The translations under genes were made by a program, and so were the position numbers. The notes below the pieces were generated by a model. It worked only from the letters and a program-made list of their open reading frames with translations. It had not been told where the DNA came from and did not search any database. 64,000 nt of DNA, taken from the NCBI RefSeq assembly GCF_002005145.1, contig NZ_CP019698.1:1550001-1614000 (forward strand). Reading direction: 5' to 3'. Numbering within the stretch: the stretch's first letter is position 1; every line of letters starts with the position of its first letter. This DNA is from Desulforamulus ferrireducens (GTDB taxonomy: Bacteria; Bacillota; Desulfotomaculia; Desulfotomaculales; Desulfotomaculaceae). This document shows, one piece after another, positions 22,157 through 44,868 of the stretch.

Positions 22157-22194
22157 AAAGATAAAACTAAATAATGCCTCATCTTAAATAGAGG

Positions 22195-22374
22195 TGAGGT
22201 AGAGGTCGCGGAGTATTAAGAGTATCCAGGAGGAGACGGGGAAAATCTATGAGCCCTGGGGAAAGGAATATCCGCCGAAGCGTTTGAGTTTCCCACTCAA
22301 ATAGCTGGGGTTGCATCGAATAGGTGCAGCACTGTCACAGGAAACCGCCTAATTTTCCTGTGGAGAACTATCTT
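22195..22374 (+). promoter_or_regulatory. Lysine riboswitch (L-box)
   Basis: The conserved core of the lysine aptamer can be followed: GGTAGAGGTCGCGG near 22198, TTAAGAGTA at 22216-22224, GGGGAAAGG at 22257-22265, GCCGAAG at 22274-22280, GTTGCATCGAA near 22310, CACTGTCA near 22331 and GAGAACTATCTT at 22363-22374. The 5' GGTAG can close the P1 helix with the 3' CTATC. It sits between a promoter and an NhaC-family carrier gene. Lysine binding should favour the downstream terminator and shut off the transporter. The call is from recognised consensus blocks, not a covariance model. Confidence 0.9.
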
Positions 22375-22396
22375 ACTAGCAAGGGAGGAGGGGCAT

Positions 22397-30270: not shown

Positions 30271-31890
<1,620 letters not shown>

Positions 31891-31969: not shown

Positions 31970-32005
31970 TTCTCGAAGTTCGAGGTTCGAAATTCGAAGT
32001 TCGAA
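31970..32005 (+). repeat. TTCGA heptad block (spacer copy 2)
   Basis: Exactly five units beginning TTCTCGA, plus one A. It is complementary to copy 3 and the two can form a long stem enclosing about 100 nt of the spacer. Confidence 0.85.
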
Positions 32006-32105
32006 AAAGAACCAAAACTTCAGAGGAAAAACATTCAACCAGTAATTACCGGTTGAATAACAAAGTCTCTTAATATAAAATGATAACTCCGAGGCTGATT
32101 CGAGT

Positions 32106-32140
32106 TCGAACCTCGAACTTCGAAAATCGAACCTCGAGAA
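32106..32140 (+). repeat. TTCGA heptad block, inverted (spacer copy 3)
   Basis: Five units in the complementary orientation (TCGAANN), ending TCGAGAA. It can pair with spacer copy 2 or with the block right after 23S (35591-35625); the latter pairing would make a stem bringing the two ends of 23S together. Confidence 0.85.
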
Positions 32141-33281: not shown

Positions 33282-33434
33282 GACATGCTAAGTGGAAAAG
33301 GATGTGGGGTTGCAGAGACAACCAGGATGTTGGCTTAGAAGCAGCCACCATTTAAAGAGTGCGTAATAGCTCACTGGTCAAGTGGCCCTGCGCCGAAAAT
33401 GAAACGGGGCTAAGCATGACACCGAAGCTTTGGA

Positions 33435-33871
33435 TTCTCGAGGTTCGATGTTCGAGATTCGATGTTCGAAAGGAGAACTCACATGATAAAAGATTATCAT
33501 GACCTAGAAGTGTATAAAAGAGGATATAAACTGGCTCTTGAAATACACAAATCAACAAAGAGTTTTCCACAGCATGAGATGTATGAGATAGGGAGCCAAT
33601 TAAGACGTGCAGCTGTATCAATACCTCTGAATATTGCTGAGGGATATGGCAGAAAGAACTATGTAGACGATTTTAAAAGGTTCTTAATAAATGCACTTGG
33701 TTCTTGTAATGAAGTTGCAGTGCTATTAGATATGATTAAGGATTTAGGATATATCTCTGAAGAGTACGAGGTACTAAAAGAGGAATACGATCATCTAGGC
33801 AGGCAGCTTAACAGATTAATACAAACATGGAAATAATCGAATTTCGAACTTCGAATATCGAACTTCGAGAA
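33435..33871 (+). other. 23S rRNA intervening sequence (helix 45)
   Basis: A 437-nt insertion between CACCGAAGCTTTGGA and TGGTAGGGGAGCGTTC, that is in the tip of helix 45, a known site for intervening sequences in other bacteria. Its ends are inverted heptad arms: 33435-33469 (TTCTCGA plus four NNTTCGA) and 33837-33871 (five TCGAANN units), each exactly 35 nt. The arms would form a stem that RNase III could cut, leaving 23S as two fragments. It encodes one small protein. Confidence 0.92.
33483..33836 (+). CDS. 23S rRNA intervening sequence protein (four-helix bundle, S23 family)
   Basis: A 117-residue protein of the family encoded inside 23S intervening sequences of Leptospira, Coxiella and others. 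Hallmarks: DYHDLEVYKRGYKLALEIH at the start, SQLRRAAVSIPLNIAEGYGR in the middle and FLINALGSCNEVAVLLDM, forming four helices. Function is unknown; crystallised homologues are pentameric helical bundles with a basic face suited to RNA. The ATG at 33483 has AAAGGAGA 6-7 bases upstream, so a real translation signal exists within the rRNA gene. Its stop ends where the 3' heptad arm begins. Codon use is AT-richer than the surrounding rRNA. Confidence 0.92.
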   Translation: MIKDYHDLEVYKRGYKLALEIHKSTKSFPQHEMYEIGSQLRRAAVSIPLNIAEGYGRKNYVDDFKRFLINALGSCNEVAVLLDMIKDLGYISEEYEVLKEEYDHLGRQLNRLIQTWK

Positions 33872-34331
33872 TGGTAGGGGAGCGTTCCTAGTTCGTAGAA
33901 GTCGTACCGAAAGGAGCGGTGGAGGACTAGGAAGTGAGAATGCCGGTATGAGTAAGCGAAAAGGCAGGTGAGAATCCTGCCCGCCGAAAACCTAAGGTTT
34001 TCTGGGGAAGGTTCGTCCGCCCAGAGTAAGTCGGGACCTAAGCCGAGGCCGCAAGGCGTAGGCGATGGACAATCGGTTGAGAATCCGATACCACCAATAA
34101 CCGTTTGAGGATGGAGTGACGCAGGAGGGTAGGTTAAGCCAGCGGTTGGAAAAGCTGGTCCAAGCCGGTAGGGAGTGTGGTAGGCAAATCCGCCACACGT
34201 AATCCTGAGAGGTGACGGGGAGCGAAAAATAGTAGCGAAGTAACTGATCCCAAACTGCCAAGAAAAGCTTCTAACTAGGTAAATTGGTGCCCGTACCGTA
34301 AACCGACACAGGTAGGTGGGGTGAAAATCCT

Positions 34332-35369: not shown

Positions 35370-35590
35370 GATCACTGGAGTACCAGCTATCGTGCCAACG
35401 GTAGCGCTGGGTAACTATATCCGGACGGGATAAGTGCTGAAAGCATCTAAGCACGAAGCCCCCTTCAAGATGAGGTTTCCCACTACGCAAGTAGGTAAGA
35501 TCCCATGCAGACTACGTGGTAGATAGGCCGGGTGTGTAAGCACAGTAATGTGTTGAGCTGACCGGTACTAATAGATCGAGGTCTTGACCA

Positions 35591-35625
35591 AATTCGATGT
35601 TCGAAGTTCGAGATTCGAAGTTCGA
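35591..35625 (+). repeat. TTCGA heptad block after 23S
   Basis: Five units (AATTCGA, TGTTCGA, AGTTCGA, GATTCGA, AGTTCGA) beginning at the very 3' end of 23S. Complementary to spacer copy 3. Confidence 0.85.
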
Positions 35626-35704
35626 ACGGAAGATACGACGAGATTACTTAAAAGCTGTTCAGTTTTCAGGGAATGCGTAATTTTTGAATGAAGATAAGAC
35701 CCCA

Positions 35705-35753
35705 AAAAGCCGACGGCCGATGGCTGAAGGCCGATGGCCAAACAAGAAAAGCC
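35705..35753 (+). repeat. GGCC heptad block between 23S and 5S
   Basis: Seven consecutive 7-nt units, four ending GGCC or GGCT and two ending AGCC (GACGGCC, GATGGCT, GAAGGCC, GATGGCC and others), with one decayed unit in phase. A second heptad family with a different core from TTCGA. Confidence 0.75.
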
Positions 35754-35817: not shown

Positions 35818-35933
35818 TCTGGTGGCGATACCGGAGGGGGTACACCTGTTCCCATCCCGAACACAGCAGTTAAGTCCTCCAGGGCCGATGGTACTTGGGG
35901 CGCAAGCCCCTGGGAGAGTAGGTCGTCGCCAGA
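35818..35933 (+). rRNA. rrf: 5S ribosomal RNA
   Basis: About 116 nt. The ends TCTGGTGGCGA and TCGTCGCCAGA pair as the terminal stem. Internal conserved parts TTCCCATCCCGAACACAGCAGTTAAG (split 35850-35875) and GGGAGAGTAGG are typical of Firmicute 5S. No tRNA genes follow. Confidence 0.93.
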
Positions 35934-36010: not shown

Positions 36011-36038
36011 AAAGGCCACTGGCAAATATCCAATGACC
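36011..36038 (+). repeat. Decayed GGCC heptad block
   Basis: Four 7-nt units (AAAGGCC, ACTGGCA, AATATCC, AATGACC) keep the spacing but have lost most of the core. Weak on its own; listed because of the clear copies nearby. Confidence 0.4.
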
Positions 36039-44481: not shown

Positions 44482-44570
44482 CAGAAAGGGGAGTGGCGCG
44501 TAACTTCAGTCATGTGACACTCCCATACTTGTCTTCATCTTTTGGTCCTTAGGCCCTTTTGCCGTTAGCT

Positions 44571-44605
44571 ATCGGCCATCGGCCATCAGCCGTCGGCCTT
44601 CGGCT
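44571..44605 (+). repeat. GGCC heptad block, left of a gene-free gap
   Basis: Five in-phase 7-nt units (ATCGGCC, ATCGGCC, ATCAGCC, GTCGGCC, TTCGGCT). The 20 bases before it look like decayed units. Confidence 0.82.
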
Positions 44606-44766
44606 TGGTTGGATTAAACATGGTACTCGTAATACATTCCCATGGAGAAGGGATTATAAGAGCCTCTCCGCTGAGAGGGGGCTGGCCGCGAAGGGGTGAG
44701 TTAGGCAGGGTTTTTGCCCACTCCTCTGGCGGTTACGCCACCACCTATACGATAGGGAGGTTCTTA
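44606..44766 (+). other. Gene-free segment between two GGCC heptad blocks
   Basis: About 160 nt with a small CCTCTC/GAGAGG hairpin (near 44654). An open frame crosses it (44605-44811), but its right part is translated repeat and I see no family resemblance, so I do not call a gene. The whole gap 44482-44868 otherwise holds nothing recognisable. Confidence 0.5.
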
Positions 44767-44815
44767 AAAGGCCAATGGCCAAAGGCTAAAGGCCAAAAGC
44801 CAATGGCCTAAGGCC
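44767..44815 (+). repeat. GGCC heptad block, right of the gap
   Basis: Seven perfect-phase 7-nt units (AAAGGCC, AATGGCC, AAAGGCT, AAAGGCC, AAAAGCC, AATGGCC, TAAGGCC). It can pair imperfectly with the block at 44571-44605. Confidence 0.85.
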
Positions 44816-44868
44816 AATCCTTTAAAGCCGAAACGGCCAGTTGCACCTCATTGACTAATTGCGCAAAT

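Follow-up and report, generated by a model that had tools for sequence, protein, structure and literature searches.

Heptamer repeats are described from bacteria in two settings: (i) the intervening sequence (IVS) of Coxiella burnetii 23S rRNA, which has two or three GACAGAT heptamers, depending on the strain, together with a degenerate one at its 5' end and is called selfish (PMC4990558), and (ii) intergenic arrays, including GGGNATC in Xanthomonas and GGGGA(C/T)T in Nostoc (PMC4692102), TAACTGA in the Beggiatoaceae (PMC4679880) and further heptamers in the SPADE survey (PMC6344855). For the function of the intergenic heptamers, these papers either give no answer (SPADE: 'no clear clue') or propose G-quadruplexes or translational control (PMC4692102, PMC4679880, PMC6344855). 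A PF05635-family protein of Xanthomonas is a homopentamer with a toroidal structure (PMC4990558). This family is not named in the passages on heptamers of these papers (PMC4692102, PMC4679880, PMC6344855), and titles and abstract openings in an open-access library give no general link between heptamer arrays and PF05635, the nearest account being that of the Coxiella IVS (PMC4990558).

The GGCC arrays considered here are, like the Xanthomonas heptamers, phased intergenic 7-nt units; the latter occur as paired convergent copies in which four units are preferred (PMC4692102). The arrays are noted in a 64-kb stretch of DNA, here termed the window (C1:1550001-1614000), of a one-contig 3.24-Mb genome (G000), and the features of this stretch are listed in Table 1. 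Within the window, the only five-unit stretches with at least 17 of 20 core matches are those that start at 35708, at 44567 and 44574, and at 44770, 44777 and 44784; 20 Markov-2 simulations of the window yield none. The GGCC arrays are also recovered when period 7 is scanned for without a preset core (five units, three constant columns), a scan that returns nothing in 10 simulations. The arrays are divided by spacer into the subtypes GGCCGAN, GGCCAAN and GGCCTAN and their reverse complements.

An earlier note on this DNA listed four GGCC blocks, and its observation is confirmed in part: the arrays are real, and two of the four blocks are as described. The five-unit block reported at 44571-44605 and the seven-unit block reported at 44767-44815 have five and seven phased cores, respectively, and are, as the earlier note did not remark, opposite arms of one element. 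The block reported at 35705-35753 is indeed a phased GGCC array between the 23S (ends at 35591) and 5S (starts at 35818) rRNA genes, but it has five cores, not seven; in the frame of the earlier note, units 6 and 7 are AAACAAG and only AAAAGCC, respectively. This array is solo, with no partner left arm found beside it in the window. The fourth block, described as decayed, is abandoned, with 12 of 16 core matches over four units where chance alone is expected to provide 2.6 such cases per 64 kb. Elsewhere in the window, a lysine riboswitch (RF00168) is noted at 22192-22378.

Table 1. Repeat arrays, element interior and gene of the 64-kb window (window coordinates).
Feature	Position	Strand	Remarks
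Left TTCGA arm, geneless 16S element	30340..30377	.	apical loop near 16S rRNA 5' end
Right TTCGA arm, geneless 16S element	30419..30456	.	period-7 scan
Left TTCGA arm, geneless 16S-23S spacer element	31970..32007	.	
Right TTCGA arm, geneless 16S-23S spacer element	32102..32140	.	
Left TTCGA arm, 23S element	33433..33472	.	period-7 scan
PF05635/TIGR02436 gene in 23S rRNA (protein P0001)	33462..33836	+	assigned to TTCGA arms
Right TTCGA arm, 23S element	33833..33872	.	period-7 scan
TTCGA array at 23S 3' end	35588..35628	.	no partner arm assigned
GGCC heptad array	35708..35739	.	five cores; spacers GAC, GAT, GAA, GAT; type A right-hand arm
'Decayed' block	36011..36038	.	chance level
Left arm, non-coding GGCC element	44574..44605	.	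five cores, type A (GGCC-NTC)
Non-coding interior, conserved, hairpin-rich	44606..44766	+	used as search query
Right arm, non-coding GGCC element	44770..44815	.	seven cores, chiefly type B (GGCC-AAN), ending in a type C spacer
Remnant, type A right arm (AGCCGAAACGGCC)	44826..44838	.	then tail resembling those beside other copies, by eye

Genome-wide, the GGCC arrays recur: the strict pattern GGCC-N3-GGCC-N3-GGCC is found at 39 places in the 3.24-Mb genome and the reversed control pattern at none. Arrays are present in both orientations in 26 of the 34 GGCC stretches examined, with the left type first in 26/26, and in a single orientation in the remaining eight. The modal array has five cores and is ~32 nt long (33/87 arrays, window included), while 24 of the 87 have 8-10 cores, several of which are two arms side by side. 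Many copies have a geneless, conserved and hairpin-rich interior of ~160 nt between the arms. The interior query gives 29 hits in the 34 stretches plus the window, of which the 22 that cover more than 110 positions are aligned, and the consensus RNA fold of these 22 copies is weak. The GGCC elements of G000 are short, multicopy and non-coding and have terminal inverted repeats, traits that are also those of MITEs. By contrast, they differ from CRISPR-like arrays in that their spacers are 3 nt long and of few types, compared to unique spacers of ~25 nt or more. Next to one end of many GGCC elements (many among L050-L083) is a GTGTCGC...GCGACAC-type hairpin with T's after it, which in the window is at 44488-44524, ~40 nt from the GGCC element; the other end often bears a tail that, read outward, is ATACGCATCATCCCCTAATTGCGCAAC.

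The PF05635 homologs of the same genome number four. Three of the genes, one of them shortened, are in 23S rRNA and sit between inverted TTCGA arrays, while the only one outside rRNA (L018) sits between inverted GGCC arrays; thus, each core surrounds its own copy of one protein family. L018 is located between glyA and a phosphatase/rpiB gene (names from ORF reading) and has no rRNA match. Its protein matches PF05635 (4.8e-33) and TIGR02436 (4.7e-32), with PF22296 (bAvd) below the cut-off (E 0.025), and the GGCC-flanked and TTCGA-flanked proteins are 61% identical. TIGR02436 is the 'four helix bundle protein' family and PF05635 the '23S rRNA-intervening sequence protein' family, and the structural relatives PDB 2gsc and 2rld have five chains each. 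The earlier note regarded the two cores as unrelated, which is too strong, as GCCGANG and TTCGANG share CGANG, read in opposite orientation relative to the gene. A reading of purine-rich 5' arms as repeated Shine-Dalgarno signals was also considered and given up, as it is at odds with the GGCC coding copy.

Compared to the defining traits of an IVS, L018 has the PF05635 protein and inverted, stem-capable terminal arms (matching at 30 of 33 positions), and the GGCC elements of the window are non-coding. Location in rRNA is a trait of the TTCGA elements of the window and not of L018 or the dispersed GGCC arrays. The site of the 23S element of the window is an apical loop (model position 1218), which we take to be helix 45. 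A similar placement is observed in RNase P RNA. In L127 (1229-2003), an apical loop of the RNase P RNA gene, presumably P12, holds a whole four-helix-bundle element that has heptad arms, with RF00010 positions 1-367 spread over 775 nt. In L137 (929-1703), the RNase P RNA is stretched to the same length, the two loci being from two genomes of one genus.

In the explanation that we favor, and regard as probable, the GGCC arrays form the termini of a family of small elements that are transposon-like (IVS-like), the arms of which are predicted to be bound by a PF05635 pentamer. The anatomy of the elements and their association with the gene are observed directly, as are precise ends and target duplications in one genome of the same order. 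Two forms of the element are present: (i) a coding copy, which carries only the PF05635 four-helix-bundle gene between inverted arms of about five units, and (ii) non-coding copies, which have the same arms and a conserved interior and are dispersed, at sites that are occupied or empty between congeners. In the proposed mechanism, the PF05635 protein (a homopentamer in a solved relative) would bind one arm, probably with one subunit per heptad, and would read core and spacing to mark or pair the two ends. The protein would serve the element that encodes it and also, in trans, the non-coding elements. The element itself does not encode the enzyme that cuts the DNA, presumably a transposase provided from elsewhere. 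Where the insertion is in an rRNA or RNase P RNA gene, the arms would lengthen an existing hairpin, such that the insertion can be tolerated and, as published for the Coxiella IVS, excised by RNase III.

The association of paired arms with the gene is surveyed at 90 loci, 84 of which are PF05635 and six of which score best as bAvd. Most (86/90) are from the phylum of the window, chiefly from 299 surveyed genomes, 57 of them with a match (bAvd included), and four are from named genomes of other phyla. A fixed test, which requires the gene to be flanked on either side by periodic arrays in inverted orientation, identifies paired inverted period-7 arms at 49 of the 84 PF05635 loci (one not evaluable), compared to 0/74 and 2/75 for control windows shifted off the gene upstream and downstream, respectively. 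The 49 passing loci include near-identical copies from single genomes and represent 39 distinct arm pairs. Paired arms are not detected at 35 of the 84 loci (34 failed and the one not evaluable), none of the six bAvd loci passes, and the same fixed test at periods 5, 6, 8, 9 and 10 gives no pass among the 89 evaluable loci. Among 26 fresh loci from other genomes of the class, which were outside the building of the test, 17 pass at period 7 and one at period 8, with no pass at periods 4-6 or 9-13; loci that pass at period 14 do so by the doubled unit, and one passes only at 14. Plasmid loci, mostly cyanobacterial (16 loci sampled of 32 hits), pass at period 7 in 11 cases; L174 passes at periods 6, 7 and 8, while L185 has 8-bp-periodic arms and passes only at 8. 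Slightly different scoring, with plasmid loci included, gives 62/106 loci at period 7. The earlier note suggested that heptad arrays are a general class in which the cores, and perhaps the cognate proteins, differ, and the survey (49/84) and its replication (17/26) support this. The putative cognate proteins of different cores are paralogues of one family, not unrelated families.

Certain four-helix-bundle genes of cyanobacterial plasmids (L171, L177, L182) have cas genes as neighbors on both sides, either cas6 and cas4 or cas10 and cmr3, and the cas10 locus (L177) fails the paired-arm test. A phage link is not apparent, with P0001 having no match in 50,697 phage records.

Neutral simple repeats, generated by polymerase slippage with a 7-nt preference and unrelated to the protein, are a very improbable source of these arrays. 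Slippage is mentioned for heptamers (PMC4679880), and unit number does differ between copies of one element. However, slippage does not account for paired inverted arrays at one gene family and their near absence from the shifted windows, for imperfect units in which the cores are constant, or for a period of 11 that is limited to one protein clade.

The relation of core to protein is in line with the suggestion of the earlier note that different cores may have different cognate proteins: each core flanks its own PF05635 paralogue and, while heptad cores vary widely between loci, core similarity grows with protein identity (Mantel r 0.31 for 48 loci, near-copies L092 and L137 left out; p 0.001, the minimum reachable with 1000 permutations). 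A core is held in common by 78% of the 36 protein pairs that are 60-80% identical and by 4-12% of those below 50%. The AGNAGTC core of two cyanobacterial plasmid loci (L176, L180) also occurs in the phylum of the window, at loci whose proteins are 69-74% identical to theirs. Units of 11 bp occur at L123, L126 and L135, the proteins of which form one 100/100 branch of a protein tree (97 rows, with few columns for that size); the switch to period 11 is a single event, which is to be set against the favored explanation. The tree includes a well-supported clade of nine armless PF05635 proteins (L112, L113, L128, L138, L140, L141, L143, L146 and L157), possibly a domesticated branch, and the bAvd clade is likewise without arms.

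Arm length has a median of 32 nt (IQR 30-36; 78 arms), equivalent to five cores and four spacers, with a lower bound that is biased by under-representation of short arms because the estimate starts from 33-nt seeds. The match between five cores and a five-subunit ring is suggestive only. As arms and gene that descend as one element would track without any binding, the tracking is evidence of cohesion, not of recognition; judged from sequence, it may reflect shared travel, with cognate binding a prediction. A general 'end code' of bacterial mobile elements is advanced more tentatively, as a proposal that falls somewhat short of an even chance: at both ends of an element, a five-subunit ring of the four-helix-bundle protein would bind five phased 7-bp units (11-bp in one clade), each subunit taking one unit, core and spacing would co-evolve with the protein, and the widespread intergenic heptamer arrays of bacteria would largely be such ends, whether alive or orphaned.

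Sites that are occupied in one congener and empty in another are exemplified by the glyA-rpiB site, which has a full element in G000, a decayed remnant in G001, a solo arm in G005 and an array with another core in G004. The site is empty in G002, G003, G006 and G007 and cut off by a contig end in G008. The element at 44574-44838 of the window is absent from G001 and G008, the only congeners in which this position is comparable, with 46-49 bp between the aligned genes compared to 385 in G000.

The abundance of dispersed arrays goes, if loosely, with the cognate gene. Among 10 genomes of the family, the three that have a TTCGA-flanked gene contain 95, 107 and 29 TTCGA arrays, compared to 0-4 in the remaining seven, two of which are incomplete. 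GGCC arrays number 39 in G000 and 9, 4, 3, 2 and 2 in five other family genomes, among which the reversed control gives six hits in G003 and one in G009. GGCCGAN triplets are found in 4/299 genomes and more than once only in G000. AGNAGTC arrays are found in 19/299 genomes, including all six in which one or both arms of the gene contain such units (identified by eye: G020, G106, G199, G240, G285 and G301; G199 failed the paired test). The 13 occurrences among the other 293 genomes comprise 12 without a PF05635 match and one, G120 (23 hits), that has genes with other cores. Thus, arrays persist without the protein, and those without the gene are relics or arose by another route.

Precise ends are described from G363, a genome of the same order as G000, in which contigs break inside a repeated element that carries the four-helix-bundle gene. 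The element has 21 right ends with 21 different flanks and seven left ends, which diverge at GTAAC. Six of the seven left flanks end in eight bases that start one right flank, as in a target duplication, and no flank matches of length 6, 7, 9 or 10 are found. The G363 element is thereby represented by at least 20 insertions with precise ends. It is assembled from a left and a right half, with no single contig among those read spanning it; both halves contain part of the gene, where they overlap, and, thus, the element appears to hold only that gene. The heptads are, by eye, just inside a terminal repeat, GTWACTAYTCAGG.

A related arrangement is noted in G369, where the element is also multicopy (L246-L249) and little more than the first half of the four-helix-bundle gene, if that, is left. 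Both ends are kept in three of these four copies, with an 8-bp duplication that is perfect in one, 7/8 in the second and missing from the third. By eye, these copies look 8-bp periodic. The G363 and G369 elements have an outer repeat, GTAACTAYTCAGG, in common, though their genes and inner repeats differ. With a distinct terminal repeat external to the heptads, a transposase need not recognize the heptads themselves; a transposase is not seen in the G363 and G369 stretches examined. The other 39 distinct arm pairs have no excess of duplications outside the arms, with at least 8 bp in 2/39 compared to 3.8% expected.

The outer repeat suggests an alternative in which the elements are MITE-like and mobilized in trans by an unrelated transposase that reads the outer repeats, with the heptads and the gene as cargo of another role. 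The occurrence of one outer repeat in elements with different genes and inner repeats, the 8-bp duplications, the plentiful non-coding copies and the gene being missing from 12 of the 19 genomes with AGNAGTC arrays are consistent with such cargo. We consider this alternative unlikely, as it is the arms, not the outer repeat, that are common across the set: at one mismatch or fewer, GTAACTAYTCAGG is found outside the G363 and G369 copies at two loci (L117 and L231) in 723 kb of fetched loci, while the arms go with the gene, its clade and its spacing.

Also unlikely is a device that operates at the RNA level, in which the arms form a transcribed hairpin that is acted on by the protein or by RNase III for excision, stability or autoregulation. 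The gene is on the rRNA strand in 27/27 rRNA-borne loci (several of which are copies in one genome), the insertion sites in 23S, 16S and RNase P RNA are apical loops, and excision by RNase III is published for the Coxiella IVS (PMC4990558). The variable columns also match in register at 0.56-0.63 compared to 0.40-0.44 off register, a difference that is partly alignment bias. By contrast, mismatches between the arms on the coding strand are G.U in 64 cases and A.C in 60 (26:18 in rRNA and 38:42 elsewhere), with no significant excess; thus, pairing of the transcript is not visibly selected, and selection for RNA pairing by this measure is unsupported. In addition, many GGCC elements are geneless and located outside structural RNA genes.

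With the arrays read as element ends and the PF05635 protein as the partner that goes with them, core and spacing become swappable in a binding test, and a testable answer is offered to the question of why seven-base repeats abound between bacterial genes. The IVS elements are also widened from an rRNA oddity to a transposon-like group that is found between genes, in RNase P RNA and between plasmid cas genes. If the predicted binding is true, the protein would represent a novel type of nucleic-acid-binding protein, one that reads arrays. TRAP, which binds NAG repeats, and En/Spm TnpA, which binds subterminal repeats, provide a working analogy of an oligomer or end-binding protein that reads a short-repeat array, with no homology claimed. 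IS66-type MITEs have GTAA ends and 8-bp duplications. Going by these general traits, the G363 and G369 elements are similar in that they start with GTAAC and make 8-bp duplications but differ in that they carry a four-helix-bundle gene (cut short in G369) and subterminal arrays. The bAvd proteins (PF22296), accessory to diversity-generating retroelements, are a related family, to which six weak PF05635 matches prove to belong, with heptad arms at 0/6; homology of 4DWL and 2GSC is suggested in PMC10053308.

The Coxiella burnetii 23S IVS (S23p/IVP) is similar to the elements described here in its protein family, terminal inverted repeats and helix 45 site (PMC4990558). By contrast, arrays are on both sides in most of the armed loci described here, the cores differ, non-coding copies are dispersed, and many of the elements are outside rRNA, whether intergenic, in RNase P RNA or between the genes of operons.
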